In this document: piece after piece, positions 30,623-36,759 of the stretch
Position numbering within the stretch: the stretch's first letter is position 1
Layout: every line of letters starts with the position of its first letter
Source of the DNA: an uncultured Wenzhouxiangella sp.
GTDB lineage: Bacteria > Pseudomonadota > Gammaproteobacteria > Xanthomonadales > Wenzhouxiangellaceae
NCBI GenBank assembly: GCA_913057255.1
Contig: CAJXNU010000003.1
Coordinates: forward strand, 1-41,868
Length of the DNA: 41,868 bases
Direction of reading: 5' to 3'
The notes under the pieces: model-generated
Database searches by the model: none
What the model saw: the letters and a program-made list of their open reading frames with translations, nothing else
Told to the model about the DNA's origin: nothing
Program-made: the position numbers and the translations under genes

Positions 30623-31393
30623 ATGCATATTCTGATTTCTAATGACGATGGGCTCTACGCTCGAGGCATCCGTTTCCTCTCAGAAGAGATCGCTCGGCAT
30701 TGCGATCAAGTCACGGTAGTGGCCCCCGACAGAGATCGCTCAGGTGCGTCTAACTCGCTGACACTTGATCAGCCCATTCGGGTGGAGTCGCTAGAAGAGG
30801 GGCGCTACAAGGTGTTCGGTACGCCCACCGATTGTGTTCACGTCGCGATCACCGGTTTGTTATCGGATGAACCAGACATGGTCATCTCTGGCATCAATGC
30901 AGGAGCGAACCTCGGCGATGATGTGCTGTACTCAGGGACGGTGGCCGCTGCCATGGAAGGTCGTTTCCTGGGTCTCCCCGCCATCGCCGTCTCATTGGTT
31001 TATGGCCCTGAGGGTCCAACCCATTACGAAACTGCTGCACTGGCCGCTTCGATGTTGATGCGTCAATTACAGCATGAGCCTCTGCCTGCCGATACGATTT
31101 TGAATATCAATGTCCCGAACTTGCCTTGGAGTGAGATCAAGGGCTTTGAAACCACCCGTTTGGGCCATCGCCACCGATCCGAAGATGTCATTCCAGTTCA
31201 AGACCCCAGGGGTCGCCAATTTTTCTGGGTGGGGCCACCGGGTGGTGAGGAAGACAATGGTCCGGGAACGGACTTCAATGCCATCCGCCAAGGTTACGTA
31301 TCGGTGACCCCGATTCATGTCGATCTGACCCGCTATCAAGCACTCGATCAAGTCAGTCAATGGATCGAGCGATTGAATCAAGGCAACGACTGA
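30623..31393 (+). CDS. surE: 5'/3'-nucleotidase SurE
   Basis: [65 protein letters not shown]. Confidence 0.97.
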
Positions 31394-31442: not shown

Positions 31443-32072
31443 ATGACCTCGAATACCACCCGCGCTCGGTTGATCGACCGACTCAGAGAAGCCGGCATCA
31501 CCGATGAGCGGGTGCTGCAAGCCATGGCAGTGACACCGCGCCATCAGTTTGTTGATGAAGCGCTCTCCTCGCGTGCCTATGAGGACTCTGCTTTGCCCAT
31601 TGGGCGAGGTCAAACCATCTCGCAGCCTCAGGTGGTGGCATTGATGACCTCGGCTGTCTGTGGTGAGGTGCTTCCTCAAAAAGCGCTGGAAATCGGCACC
31701 GGCTCAGGCTATCAGGCGGCGGTACTGGCTCAGCTGGCCAAGCAGGTGTTCACCACAGAACGCATTGCAGAGTTGTCGCGCTTAGCCAAGCAGCGCTTTC
31801 ATCGCTTGGGTTTGCACAATATTTTGGCGCGCCATCAAGATGGTTTGGGTGGTTGGCCATCGCAAGCGCCCTTTGATGCCATTGTGGTGACAGCCGGTGG
31901 TCAAGTGCCCCAAGCGCTCTATGATCAGTTGGCTGAAGGTGGCATCTTGGTCGCGCCCGAGCAAGTCAATGAGCATCAGCGCTTGATCAAGGTCAAGCGC
32001 GTGAATGGGCGCTTGGAGCGAACAGAGTTAGGGCAGGTGAGCTTCGTGCCATTGCTTGAAGGAGTGGCTTAG
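31443..32072 (+). CDS. pcm: Protein-L-isoaspartate O-methyltransferase
   Basis: AMAVTPRHQFVDEALSSRAYEDSALPIGRGQTISQP, ALEIGTGSGYQAAVLAQL, DGLGGWPSQAPFDAIVVTAGG. Confidence 0.97.
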   Translation: MTSNTTRARLIDRLREAGITDERVLQAMAVTPRHQFVDEALSSRAYEDSALPIGRGQTISQPQVVALMTSAVCGEVLPQKALEIGTGSGYQAAVLAQLAKQVFTTERIAELSRLAKQRFHRLGLHNILARHQDGLGGWPSQAPFDAIVVTAGGQVPQALYDQLAEGGILVAPEQVNEHQRLIKVKRVNGRLERTELGQVSFVPLLEGVA

Positions 32073-33446
32073 GTGGTCGCGATCTTTACACCCATTTATG
32101 ACCGCGTACTGATGTGGTCTCGGCACCGGCATGCTGAGCGGTATCTGATGGGCATGAGCATGGCGGAGTCTATTTTCTTTCCCATTCCGCCGGATGTGAT
32201 GTTGGCACCGATGGTGCTTGCCAATCGAGCTCGGGCCTGGTGGTTGGCTGGGATGACCACGTTGGCCTCGGTCATTGGCGGCGTGATTGGCTATTTGTTG
32301 GGATACTGGGCACTTGAGCTCATCATGCCCTTGATAGAACGCGCCGGCTATGTCGGTGCCTATGACCAGGCCGTCGAAGCCTTTGAAAACTACGGCATCT
32401 GGTTTGTAATTTTGGCTGGGTTTTCTCCCATTCCTTTTAAGCTCATCACGATCGCCGCTGGGGCATTGGGCATGCCGTGGTTGGGCTTTGTGGCCGGCGC
32501 ATTGATTGGTCGAGCCTCTCGTTTTTATATGGTGGCAGGCATTATTTATGCCGGTGGCGAACGCGCAGCTGAGCACTTGCGTTCATGGGTCGATCGCATC
32601 GGTTGGGCCGTGGTGGGGCTGGCCTTGGTGGTGGCCTTGTTGTGGTTGACCGGCTGTGCGAGTACAACGCCTGCGCCAGTGGTTCATCGGTCGGGCTTAA
32701 GTGGCACAGCGAGCGCCATCGCACCGGCCACCTACACCGTCCGGGCGGGGGATTCTTTGTATTCCATCGCTTTTCGCTATGGACTGGATTGGCAAGAGGT
32801 GGCCGCTTGGAATGGCATTCCATCGCCCTATGTGATTCGTCAAGGTGACGAGCTTCGTCTGCGGCGGCCAGTGGGGCGCCGTGTCGCTGTCACTCGTGAT
32901 GCAAGGTCTACGCAGACGCCCCGCATCAATGAAACCCGCCCGCTGAGTCAAGTGCCGCCGAGTCAAGTGCGGTCGGCCGAACTTCAGGTTCGGCCCACCG
33001 CAGAGCCAAAGACGGACACGTTGGTGGTTGCAGGCGCGGATCAAGCCGATGCGCCCACGCGCCGAGTGGAGGGCTTGGATTGGCAATGGCCGCTCGACGG
33101 GGCGGTCGAGCGTGCGTTTAATCCCTCGGCGACTCGGCGCGGGCTGGGTATCAACGGTGCTGCCGGTGATGTGGTGGTGGCGGCCGCCGATGGTGAGGTG
33201 GTCTATAGCGGGACGGCTCTGATCGGTTATGGTGAGTTGGTGATCATCAAGCACTCGCCCACGCTGCTTTCTGCCTATGGCTACAACAGCAAGCGTCTGG
33301 TGGACGAGGGCATGCGGGTAGAGGCCGGCGCCCCGATCGCCGAGGTGGGACAAAACACCGATGGCCAGTGGCAGCTGCATTTTGAAGTGCGTCGCAATGG
33401 AGATGCGGTGGATCCGAGGGCCTTTTTGCCATCTACAAACCAGTGA
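32073..33446 (+). CDS. DedA/YqaA-type membrane protein fused to NlpD-like LysM + LytM(M23) domain
   Basis: Single ORF: DedA part MVAIFTPIYDRVLMWSRHRHAERYLMGMSMAESIFFPIPPDVMLAPM...FVILAGFSPIPFKLITIAAGAL...SWVDRIGWAVVGLALVVALLWL; lipobox LTGC (Cys195); LysM YTVRAGDSLYSIAFRYGLDWQEVAAWNGI; LytM-like C-terminus. GTG start abuts pcm stop. Confidence 0.88.
   Translation: MVAIFTPIYDRVLMWSRHRHAERYLMGMSMAESIFFPIPPDVMLAPMVLANRARAWWLAGMTTLASVIGGVIGYLLGYWALELIMPLIERAGYVGAYDQAVEAFENYGIWFVILAGFSPIPFKLITIAAGALGMPWLGFVAGALIGRASRFYMVAGIIYAGGERAAEHLRSWVDRIGWAVVGLALVVALLWLTGCASTTPAPVVHRSGLSGTASAIAPATYTVRAGDSLYSIAFRYGLDWQEVAAWNGIPSPYVIRQGDELRLRRPVGRRVAVTRDARSTQTPRINETRPLSQVPPSQVRSAELQVRPTAEPKTDTLVVAGADQADAPTRRVEGLDWQWPLDGAVERAFNPSATRRGLGINGAAGDVVVAAADGEVVYSGTALIGYGELVIIKHSPTLLSAYGYNSKRLVDEGMRVEAGAPIAEVGQNTDGQWQLHFEVRRNGDAVDPRAFLPSTNQ
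32975..32995 (+). repeat. Intragenic inverted repeat GGCCGAAC-TTCAG-GTTCGGCC (8-bp perfect stem, 5-nt loop)
   Basis: Read directly; lies in the NlpD linker between LysM and LytM. Confidence 0.6.
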
Positions 33447-33502
33447 CTTGCTGGTCATCCCCAAAGTAGCTTCGAAAAAAAGACGCTATCTATCGGTATC
33501 TC

Positions 33503-33531
33503 TTGACTTTTTCTATTTTTTTGTTCATCAT
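33503..33531 (+). promoter_or_regulatory. amiB: Possible sigma70 promoter TTGACT-N17-CATCAT upstream of amiB
   Basis: -35 TTGACT (33503-33508), 17-bp T-rich spacer, -10 CATCAT (33526-33531); amiB ATG at 33574. Confidence 0.35.
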
Positions 33532-33573
33532 CGGGCTCAGTCGTTATTTCTAGAGCGCAGGTTTTATTGGGCC

Positions 33574-34908
33574 ATGAGACAACTTTTTGGGATCAGACCG
33601 ACCTGGCAACGAATCAGCTTAGCGCTTTTGCTGTGGTGCGTTGGGCATGCTGCCAGCGCTCAATCGGTGGAGAATCTCCGTCTCTGGTCTGGCCCGGATG
33701 GCACCCGCGTGGTGTTTGATCTTGACCAGTCGGTTGACTATCGAATCATTGAACTCGATGACCCTCATCGGGTGGTGGTGGACTTGCAGAACACCCGCTT
33801 GGCCGGTGAGCTGGCCTTACCCTCGAAGAAAACGGACTTGATCACGAACGTGCGCCATGGGATTCGGCAAGGGACCGATCTGCGCGTGGTGTTCGATCTC
33901 GGCGCCCGGGCCAAGCCACAAAGCTTTTTGCTCACACCCGCCGGCGCTTATGGCCATCGTTTGGTGGTGGACCTAGTGCCCGAGGATGTTGTGCCGGCCG
34001 CCGAACGGGTCCGGCAAGCAGTGCAAACCGCGCAAACTGGCGAGCGCAAAATGATCGTGGCCATTGATGCTGGGCACGGCGGGGAGGATCCCGGTGCCAT
34101 CGGTCCATCAGGCAGTTACGAAAAGACGGTGGTCCTAGAAATCGCTCGAGAGCTTAAAAAGCGGCTCGATGCCATGCCAGGTGTCCAAGGTGTTTTGCTT
34201 CGAACTGGAGATTACTTCATCCCCTTGGGCGAGCGCTATCAACGCGCACGTCAGGCCGAAGCCGATTTGTTTATCTCCATCCACGCAGATGCGTTCAGAG
34301 ACTTCCGCGTCAGAGGAAGCTCAGTCTACATTTTGTCGCAACGGGGAGCTTCATCTGAGGCGGCTCGTATGTTGGCAAAAAGTGAAAACGAGGCCGATCT
34401 CATTGGGGGCGTGAAATTAGACCGTGGTGACGATGTATTGAGTTCCGTGTTGTTGGATTTGTCTCAAAGTGCGACGCTTGAATACAGCGCCCTTGCGGCT
34501 GAAAACTTACTCAACCAATTGGGTACGGTGGGGCGCCGGCACCGCAAGCGGGTGGAGAGTGCCAATTTTGTGGTGCTCCGTTCGCCTGATGTGCCTAGCG
34601 TATTGGTGGAAGTCGGTTTTATCTCAAACCCGCAAGATGAGCAGAACCTCAATAGCGCTCACCATCGGAAGAAAGTGGCCAATGCCTTGGCACAAGGGAT
34701 TCATCAACACTTCATGCGAACAGCGCCACAAGGCACCTGGTATGCCGCCCATCGCTCAGAGCAACGTTACATCGTTCAGCAGGGTGATACCTTGGGCGTG
34801 ATCGCTCAGCAGCATCGCGTGAGCGTCAATGACCTTCGGGCCAGCAACAATATCGATGGTGATTTGATTCGACCTGGCGCTGTTTTGGTCATTCCGGCCG
34901 GCTCATAA
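33574..34908 (+). CDS. amiB: N-acetylmuramoyl-L-alanine amidase with AMIN domain and C-terminal LysM
   Basis: Signal peptide, AMIN (VENLRLWSGPDGTRVVFDLD), Amidase_3 (IVAIDAGHGGEDPGAIGPSGSYEKTVVLEIA...DLFISIHADAF...VPSVLVEVGFISNPQDEQNL), LysM (YIVQQGDTLGVIAQQHRVSVNDLRASN). Confidence 0.95.
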   Translation: MRQLFGIRPTWQRISLALLLWCVGHAASAQSVENLRLWSGPDGTRVVFDLDQSVDYRIIELDDPHRVVVDLQNTRLAGELALPSKKTDLITNVRHGIRQGTDLRVVFDLGARAKPQSFLLTPAGAYGHRLVVDLVPEDVVPAAERVRQAVQTAQTGERKMIVAIDAGHGGEDPGAIGPSGSYEKTVVLEIARELKKRLDAMPGVQGVLLRTGDYFIPLGERYQRARQAEADLFISIHADAFRDFRVRGSSVYILSQRGASSEAARMLAKSENEADLIGGVKLDRGDDVLSSVLLDLSQSATLEYSALAAENLLNQLGTVGRRHRKRVESANFVVLRSPDVPSVLVEVGFISNPQDEQNLNSAHHRKKVANALAQGIHQHFMRTAPQGTWYAAHRSEQRYIVQQGDTLGVIAQQHRVSVNDLRASNNIDGDLIRPGAVLVIPAGS

Positions 34909-34935
34909 CCTTCAAGTGGGGTTACACTTTGTGGC

Positions 34936-36759
34936 ATGTCCATTCGTGCCCTTGATCAACACCTAATTAACCAAATAGCTGCCGGCGAAGTCGTCGAGCG
35001 TCCAGCCTCTGTCGTGAAAGAGCTCGTTGAAAATGCGATTGATGCGGGTGCTCGTCGCATTGAAGTGCATGTCGAGTCTGGGGGCATGGCCCGCATTAAA
35101 GTGCATGATGATGGGGCGGGCATACCTGAGCAGGAGTTGCGATTGGCTCTGAGTCCTCATGCGACCAGCAAAATCAGCTCGCTGGCTGATCTCGAGGCGG
35201 TGGCGAGTCTTGGATTTAGGGGCGAGGCTCTGGCTTCCATCGCATCGGTGTCTCGCTTTCGCCTGGCTTCCAAGCCCGAGGGTCAAAGCAGCGGCTTTGA
35301 GATCCTAGCAGCAGAAGGCGAGCTGGGAGAAGTCGCGCCAGTGGCCCAGCCCAAAGGCACAACCGTCGATGTGAAAGATCTGTTTTTTAATACGCCGGCG
35401 CGGCGAAAATTCATGCGAACGGAAAAGACAGAGTTTGGCCACATTGATGACGTGATCCGTCGCATGGCATTGGCGCACATGTCGATTGGATTTGAGCTTT
35501 ATCACAACCAACGCGTTGTGCGGCAATTGAATCCAGCCAGCGAGCCTCAGCAGGTCACGCGACGCATTGGCCAGGTCTTTGGAGAGGCATTCCTAGACAA
35601 TGCCGTGGACATTCAAAGAACCCACGAGGATTTGTTTCTAAGCGGTTGGATTGCCAAGCCCACCTTTTCCAGATCTCAAGCAGACATGCAGTTTTTCTTT
35701 GTCAATGGCCGATTGGTCAAAGACCGTGTGGTCGCCCACGCCATCCGACAAGCGTATCGGGATGTGCTGTTTCATGGGAGACATCCGGCGTTTGTGTTGC
35801 ATTTGGCCATCAATCCAGAGGCCGTGGATGTGAATGTACATCCCCAAAAAACGGAGGTTCGATTTCGAGAGTCTCGGCGTGTGCATGATTTCTTGTTCTC
35901 TAGCTTGCATCATGCCTTGGCAGACACCAAGCCACAGGGGAGGCCGACAGATCCGACAGCTGCTGATGATCCAAGGTCACAGCAACCCTTCGGAGACACC
36001 ATTGCAGGGGGCCGGCCAAGCCACTGGGCCTCATCTGGTGGTGAGGGACTGGTATCAGGCCAGCGACCTTTAGGGCTTGGCAGTGCTGAGACACTGGGTC
36101 AGTACCAGAGGCTGATTCAGCCTGAGGGCTCGCCGGGCCAGTTGGGTCAGAGCGATGACGCGGTGGGCGAGGAGATTCCTCCTCTGGGTTATGCTCGGGC
36201 GCAATTACACGGCATCTTTATCGTGGCCGAAAACCGCGATGGGCTGATCCTAGTCGACATGCATGCAGCCCATGAGCGCATTGTCTATGAGCAACTTAAA
36301 GTGGCGTGGCAAGAGGACAAAGTTCAGTCGCAGCGACTATTGGTGCCGACGCAGCTGACACTCACTGGTCCGCAAATCGGGGCCTATGAGCAGCACATGG
36401 AGGCGCTGGAACAGCTGGGGTTTGATCTATCCGCAGCTGGCCCTGGGGAGATGGTCATTCGGGCTTTGCCCAGTCTCTTGTCCCAAAAACAATCGATTGA
36501 ACTGGTGGGTGATGTGCTCACCGAATTGGCCCAAGTCGGGACAAGTGGTTTGGTCGAGGAAGCGTTGGATCATCTGCTGGCCACCATGGCTTGCTATGGC
36601 TCGGTTCGAGCCAACCGAAAGCTCACCATTGAGGAAATGAATGCCTTACTCAGAGCCATGGAGGTCACTGAACGGGCGGATCAGTGCAATCACGGCAGGC
36701 CCACTTGGGTTCACCTGGATTTAAAGGCTTTGGACCGATTGTTTCTCAGAGGCCAATGA
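34936..36759 (+). CDS. mutL: DNA mismatch repair protein MutL
   Basis: IRALDQHLINQIAAGEVVERPASVVKELVENAIDAGA, GFRGEALASIASVSRF, C-terminal DMHAAHERIVYE and QCNHGRPTW. Confidence 0.98.
   Translation: MSIRALDQHLINQIAAGEVVERPASVVKELVENAIDAGARRIEVHVESGGMARIKVHDDGAGIPEQELRLALSPHATSKISSLADLEAVASLGFRGEALASIASVSRFRLASKPEGQSSGFEILAAEGELGEVAPVAQPKGTTVDVKDLFFNTPARRKFMRTEKTEFGHIDDVIRRMALAHMSIGFELYHNQRVVRQLNPASEPQQVTRRIGQVFGEAFLDNAVDIQRTHEDLFLSGWIAKPTFSRSQADMQFFFVNGRLVKDRVVAHAIRQAYRDVLFHGRHPAFVLHLAINPEAVDVNVHPQKTEVRFRESRRVHDFLFSSLHHALADTKPQGRPTDPTAADDPRSQQPFGDTIAGGRPSHWASSGGEGLVSGQRPLGLGSAETLGQYQRLIQPEGSPGQLGQSDDAVGEEIPPLGYARAQLHGIFIVAENRDGLILVDMHAAHERIVYEQLKVAWQEDKVQSQRLLVPTQLTLTGPQIGAYEQHMEALEQLGFDLSAAGPGEMVIRALPSLLSQKQSIELVGDVLTELAQVGTSGLVEEALDHLLATMACYGSVRANRKLTIEEMNALLRAMEVTERADQCNHGRPTWVHLDLKALDRLFLRGQ

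Follow-up and report, generated by a model that had tools for sequence, protein, structure and literature searches.

A fused dedA-nlpD gene in Wenzhouxiangella and its possible processing by signal peptidase II

NlpD is a murein hydrolase activator, an outer-membrane lipoprotein encoded at the surE-pcm-nlpD locus. The stretch of DNA analysed here (the window; 41,868 nucleotides, nt, from an uncultured Wenzhouxiangella sp.) carries this locus, with a difference: its NlpD-like protein has no signal peptide of its own and makes up the C-terminal portion of a polytopic, DedA-type membrane protein.

The fused reading frame and its two halves

The original prediction described one uninterrupted 457-codon open reading frame, DedA-type at first and carrying LysM and LytM domains thereafter, and both our reading of the frame and its Pfam domains bear this description out, as they do the positions given for a lipobox and for a TTG codon within it. 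The features of the locus in the window genome (G000) are as follows; G023 (also L031) is a second species of the same genus.

30623..31393, + strand: surE, named by sequence similarity; same gene order in L031
31404..32072, + strand: pcm; its stop abuts the fused frame
32057..32065, + strand: Shine-Dalgarno sequence tgaAGGAGt within the pcm 3' end, duplex -8.3 kcal/mol
32073..33446, + strand: fused dedA-nlpD frame, 457 amino acids (aa), identified by Pfam and by the intact homologous fusion in G023/L031
32073..32654, + strand: DedA half, residues 1-194 (VTT_dom 40-158), the predicted upstream product of signal peptidase II (SPase II)
32577..32579, + strand: TTG codon 169, earlier proposed as an internal start; CTG in G023; duplex -1.9 kcal/mol, no Shine-Dalgarno sequence
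32598..32654, + strand: hydrophobic segment common to both halves (residues 176-194), forming the last helix of DedA and presumably the signal-peptide h-region of NlpD
32646..32657, + strand: lipobox L-T-G-C, residues 192-195; SPase II is predicted to cut after codon 194
32655..33443, + strand: NlpD half, the predicted mature lipoprotein, residues 195-457, LysM and degenerate LytM/M23
33574..34908, + strand: AmiC-type amidase (AMIN, Amidase_3 and LysM), the expected NlpD target; same neighbour in G023

A GTG that adjoins the pcm stop (TAG, 32070-32072) opens the frame, which ends with TGA and contains no internal stop, and the Shine-Dalgarno sequence within pcm is the strongest near any start considered. 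Three Pfam domains scored above their gathering scores, namely, VTT_dom (residues 40-158), LysM (221-263), and Peptidase_M23 (355-448), and Cys195 of the lipobox is the sole cysteine of the protein.

In the DedA half, VTT_dom reached 47.9 bits (cutoff, 33.9) and both reentrant motifs (PIPPDVMLAPM and AGFSPIPFK) are present, and the UptA profile gave a weak match far below its cutoff. Its YqaA-like length (~194 residues) and its position downstream of pcm and upstream of nlpD, where unfused relatives also have dedA, make COG1238/YqaA the probable type of this half. DedA proteins of COG1238 are 99% single-domain, have no established function, and have been suggested to be linked to the outer membrane (PMC10127716). 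Unlike these proteins, the fusion continues beyond its last helix, in the same frame, into a periplasmic lipoprotein domain (LysM-LytM), and it offers a physical link to a DedA subfamily without established function.

The NlpD half resembles NlpD in its LysM and degenerate LytM domains, its lipobox cysteine, its surE-pcm locus, and the AmiC-type amidase gene next door. As read from the sequence, only the last zinc/catalytic His of M23 (QLHFE) is left in its LytM domain; RGLGIN stands in place of HxxxD, and Gln in place of the first His of HxH. Against the NCBIfam NlpD equivalog (cutoff, 311 bits), this half scored 139 bits and the separate NlpD of an unfused relative scored 167 bits. Since this E. 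coli-centred cutoff excludes the whole genus, we term the half NlpD-like on the basis of domain order and locus. The best Foldseek matches of the structural model were the LytM domains of DipM and EnvC, both tied to amidase/autolysin control.

Spread and origin of the fusion

As checked by homology and domain searches, the fusion is conserved in a sister genome. More specifically, G023 (1.8 Mb, 98% complete), which was assembled independently, codes for a stop-free fusion of 454 aa that is 67% identical to that of the window over residues 3-456; its joint falls on the same residue, and its lipobox reads L-A-G-C. As two independent assemblies carry the same stop-free fusion, it is not due to a sequencing error or indel. 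The matches listed from 43 genomes of the family, 300 of the order, and 369 of the class included no further stop-free full-length fusion, although very diverged fusions may escape this search. L032-L035 were considered as further fusions and rejected, as at least one stop lies between dedA and nlpD or the two are in different frames; likewise, the long open frames in G050, G039, G335, G070, G076, G425, and other class genomes are broken at the joint by a stop or frame change. In a tree built from SurE, Pcm, and the LytM domain, the window species and G023 form one clade (100% UFboot) on a long stem branch. This one supported clade, with no other fusion among the matches listed, points to a single fusion event that was retained across considerable divergence. 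The two genomes are small (2.1 and 1.8 Mb versus mostly 2.3-4.2 Mb in the genus, where some smaller ones are incomplete), and small genomes together with the long stem branch suggest a reduced, fast-evolving lineage.

Three states are thus found in the genus, i.e., an overlapping dedA/nlpD pair, loss of dedA, and fusion. As expected, relatives have dedA and nlpD as two genes downstream of surE-pcm, with two refinements: where unfused genus members have both, nlpD starts within or just past the dedA 3' end in another frame, and in nine or more members of the genus an ortholog of this dedA was undetectable. In genus relatives L009, L014, L015, L016, L022, L025, L026, and L058, and also in L090, dedA was undetectable and nlpD directly follows pcm. 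The COG1238-like dedA is therefore dispensable to some members of the genus. G015 and G014 carry only DedA paralogs (28-32% identical).

Comparison with unfused genus members (n = 11) indicates how the joint may have arisen. In these, dedA ends in ...WWLW-stop, and nlpD begins inside or just past that end in another frame. The distance from the start of the codon for Trp178, the conserved Trp (GW) of the last DedA helix, to the NlpD Cys codon is 51 nt in both fusions versus 101-124 nt in the 11 unfused members; against nine of the 11, the shortfall is 50 or 53 nt, leaving a remainder of 2 when divided by 3. This difference in spacing points to one net deletion of ~50 nt, which would have taken the dedA stop, the basic n-region of NlpD, and one of two consecutive hydrophobic segments, and so joined the frames. 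The hydrophobic stretches are similar in their codons (e.g., LVVAVLWMAGC of NlpD in G029 and LVVALLWLTGC in the window), so that the breakpoints cannot be placed exactly; slippage is a plausible cause of the deletion.

The shared helix and the fate of the fused chain

The topology of the DedA half determines on which side of the membrane the NlpD half would lie. Across 28 unfused DedA proteins, net loop charges were +3.1 at the N terminus, +1.8 after the first reentrant helix, and -2.8 after TM1, and the segment before the last helix holds ~3 Arg/Lys at a net charge near zero. This positive-inside pattern argues for an N-in/C-out topology in which the last helix would run from cytoplasm to periplasm, placing NlpD where LysM can bind peptidoglycan. 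An AlphaFold model (pTM 0.52; high confidence in the DedA part and LytM) showed residues 136-197 as one continuous helix and 198-215 as disordered, and we assume that the chain kinks between its last two passes through the membrane. Alignment A1 had put separate NlpD rows on the DedA region, and the NlpD part of the model rests on few rows; the model was therefore used for helix boundaries only.

A C-out last helix may also explain the absence of fusions by stop loss. Across the class (e.g., L034, L035, and L037-L045), dedA and nlpD often share a frame with just one stop separating them; loss of that stop would take a single mutation, with many chances for it, and no such fusion was seen. In unfused relatives, plain stop loss would be unlikely to work, because the second hydrophobic segment would remain, starting on the periplasmic side and facing the wrong way after the C-out helix. 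After the deletion, only one hydrophobic segment precedes Cys195 in the fusions.

The lipobox pattern [LVI][ASTVI][GAS]C follows this segment at the same residue in both species, as LTGC (window) and LAGC (G023). The segment itself is 53% identical between them, and the lipobox positions L(-3), G(-1), and C(+1) are unchanged, with the lipobox Cys being the only cysteine in one fused protein and one of two in the other. Coming from two sequences and three residues, this constraint on the lipobox is suggestive. A typical lipoprotein carries an N-terminal signal with a basic n-region and a Cys within ~35 residues of the start; in the fusion, by contrast, the Cys is residue 195, the presumed signal closes a series of membrane segments, and the usual close basic n-region is absent, with Arg170 and Arg175 preceding the h-region. 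The original prediction that one segment doubles as terminal DedA helix and NlpD signal gains support from the 50-nt-shorter joint, the kept lipobox, and the N-in/C-out topology, and we regard it as well supported that the joint helix would serve both halves.

Our best reading, which we hold to be somewhat better than an even bet, is that the chain is a polyprotein processed by SPase II into DedA and an outer-membrane NlpD lipoprotein. In an ancestor of the two small-genome Wenzhouxiangella-like species, a net deletion of ~50 nt would have joined the overlapping, out-of-frame dedA and nlpD. The fused chain would insert as a DedA membrane protein, and its last helix (residues 176-194), directly before Cys195, would carry LysM-LytM into the periplasm; Cys195 would then be lipidated by Lgt, and LspA would cut after Gly194 to yield a native-length DedA and an NlpD lipoprotein, which Lol would move to the outer membrane, where it would activate the AmiC-type amidase encoded next door. 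What the sequences show is the fusion itself, its conservation, the geometry of the deletion, retention of the lipobox, selection on both halves, and the encoded enzymes; topology, lipidation, cleavage, sorting, and amidase activation are inferences. The stricter proposition, a natural SPase II polyprotein in which the last transmembrane (TM) helix of a polytopic protein is the lipoprotein signal and both products, an inner-membrane member of a lipid-transport family and an outer-membrane division lipoprotein, arise in equal amounts, seems to us evenly poised between true and false.

Several findings are consistent with processing. An LspA, an Lgt, and a LolC/E protein are encoded in the genome, and cleavage would leave a DedA of 194 aa, against about 191-193 aa in unfused genus members. 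The predicted mature NlpD starts with Cys-Ala-Ser (window) or Cys-Arg-Ala (G023), i.e., with Ala or Arg at +2 and no Asp, in contrast to the Lol-blocking Asp of E. coli NlpD(S27D). That inner-membrane-retained E. coli variant fails to rescue chaining, which the outer-membrane form rescues, and septa split efficiently only if NlpD is located in the outer membrane (PMC5533458). If this requirement holds here, cleavage would be needed, in agreement with the kept lipobox. In a literature search that was thin on subscription journals, we found no published SPase II cleavage after a polytopic protein; acceptance of this substrate by Lgt and LspA is therefore assumed. In G000, lspA is split over two contig ends (C47:14059-14334 and C159:4-219, profile positions 2-92 and 69-140), and it is whole in G023; the split is an assembly break, not a gene loss. 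If cleavage occurs, Lgt and LspA would take the last helix of a multi-spanning protein as substrate, which would widen the definition of a lipoprotein signal; predictors that require an N-terminal signal would overlook such lipoproteins; and the coupling of DedA to septal amidase control suggested at the outset would amount to equal synthesis and shared membrane insertion only.

A permanent tether, which we consider possible at roughly one chance in four, would leave the chain uncleaved, lipidated or not, with DedA anchoring NlpD to the inner membrane, where it would act in the manner of a membrane-linked amidase activator such as EnvC docked on FtsX. In hydrophobicity, the last helix would qualify as a stable TM helix (mean Kyte-Doolittle value, 2.2-2.9 across 19 residues), both species keep both halves in one chain, and the EnvC-like protein that is also encoded could supply normal activation. 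However, a plain tether has no need of a lipobox, and this one is kept while its surroundings drift; an NlpD retained in the inner membrane does not work in E. coli (PMC5533458), and the NlpDs of unfused relatives all have lipoprotein signals. If the tether were real, an amidase activator that in E. coli is outer-membrane by need would sit on an inner-membrane DedA base.

Separate translation of nlpD from TTG169 or from GTG180/181 within the dedA frame, possibly beside a read-through fusion, is improbable. The GTG codons 180 and 181 occur in both species, and nlpD would have started in or near the dedA end in unfused ancestors, but predicted duplexes were -1.9 to -6.2 kcal/mol at the internal codons versus -8.3 and -9.8 kcal/mol at the fusion starts of the two species, and the internal values fall short of the 5% background of -7.5. 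In addition, a signal starting at 180 or 181 would have no Lys or Arg, and the dedA stop needed for coupled reinitiation is lost. TTG 32577, the internal NlpD start originally suggested, was rejected as the main start, since it is CTG in G023, and no internal candidate has a strong Shine-Dalgarno sequence or a conserved basic n-region. Of the three options put forward at the outset, the polyprotein is thus favoured, the tether is possible, and the internal start is disfavoured.

An assembly or sequencing artefact, or a decaying pseudogene losing one half, is very improbable: the window comes from a draft MAG (2.09 Mb in 198 contigs, 95.5% complete) and this dedA is absent from many genus relatives, but the fusion is present in two independent assemblies, with proteins that are 67% identical, the DedA half has a dN/dS of about 0.12, and both reentrant motifs are identical in the two species. 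The DedA parts are 72% identical (dN 0.19; dS 1.5, which is near or beyond saturation, so that the low dN alone is meaningful), and identity is 78% in LytM and 33% in the linker. On these values, both halves of the fusion are under purifying selection, which we also count in favour of the polyprotein.

Known systems and the amidase neighbourhood

We found no published DedA-NlpD fusion, with the same thin coverage of subscription journals. The nearest precedent known to us is FbcH of Bradyrhizobium, a cytochrome b/c1 polyprotein processed by type I signal peptidase. Both are chains in which a polytopic membrane protein is followed by a periplasmic protein, and in FbcH the internal signal is cut by signal peptidase; the two differ in that FbcH involves the type I enzyme and a cytochrome product, whereas the lipobox of the fusion would call for type II. 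The fusion resembles EnvC-FtsX and other inner-membrane-linked amidase activators in carrying a LytM activator of an amidase; it differs in that EnvC, which FtsX recruits, is a soluble protein of its own, with no DedA involved.

The AmiC-type gene directly downstream codes for the sole Amidase_3 protein detected in this genome, and we consider this amidase the likely partner that the NlpD half would activate. The genome additionally encodes an EnvC-like protein, so that amidase activation may not depend on NlpD alone. The amidase adjoins nlpD in G023, G019, G017, and G026, and lies >160 kb away in G018. In enterobacteria, rpoS usually follows nlpD; the gene next after the nlpD half here is not rpoS, and the nlpD half, the amiC-type amidase, and mutL stand in a row (33447-36759).
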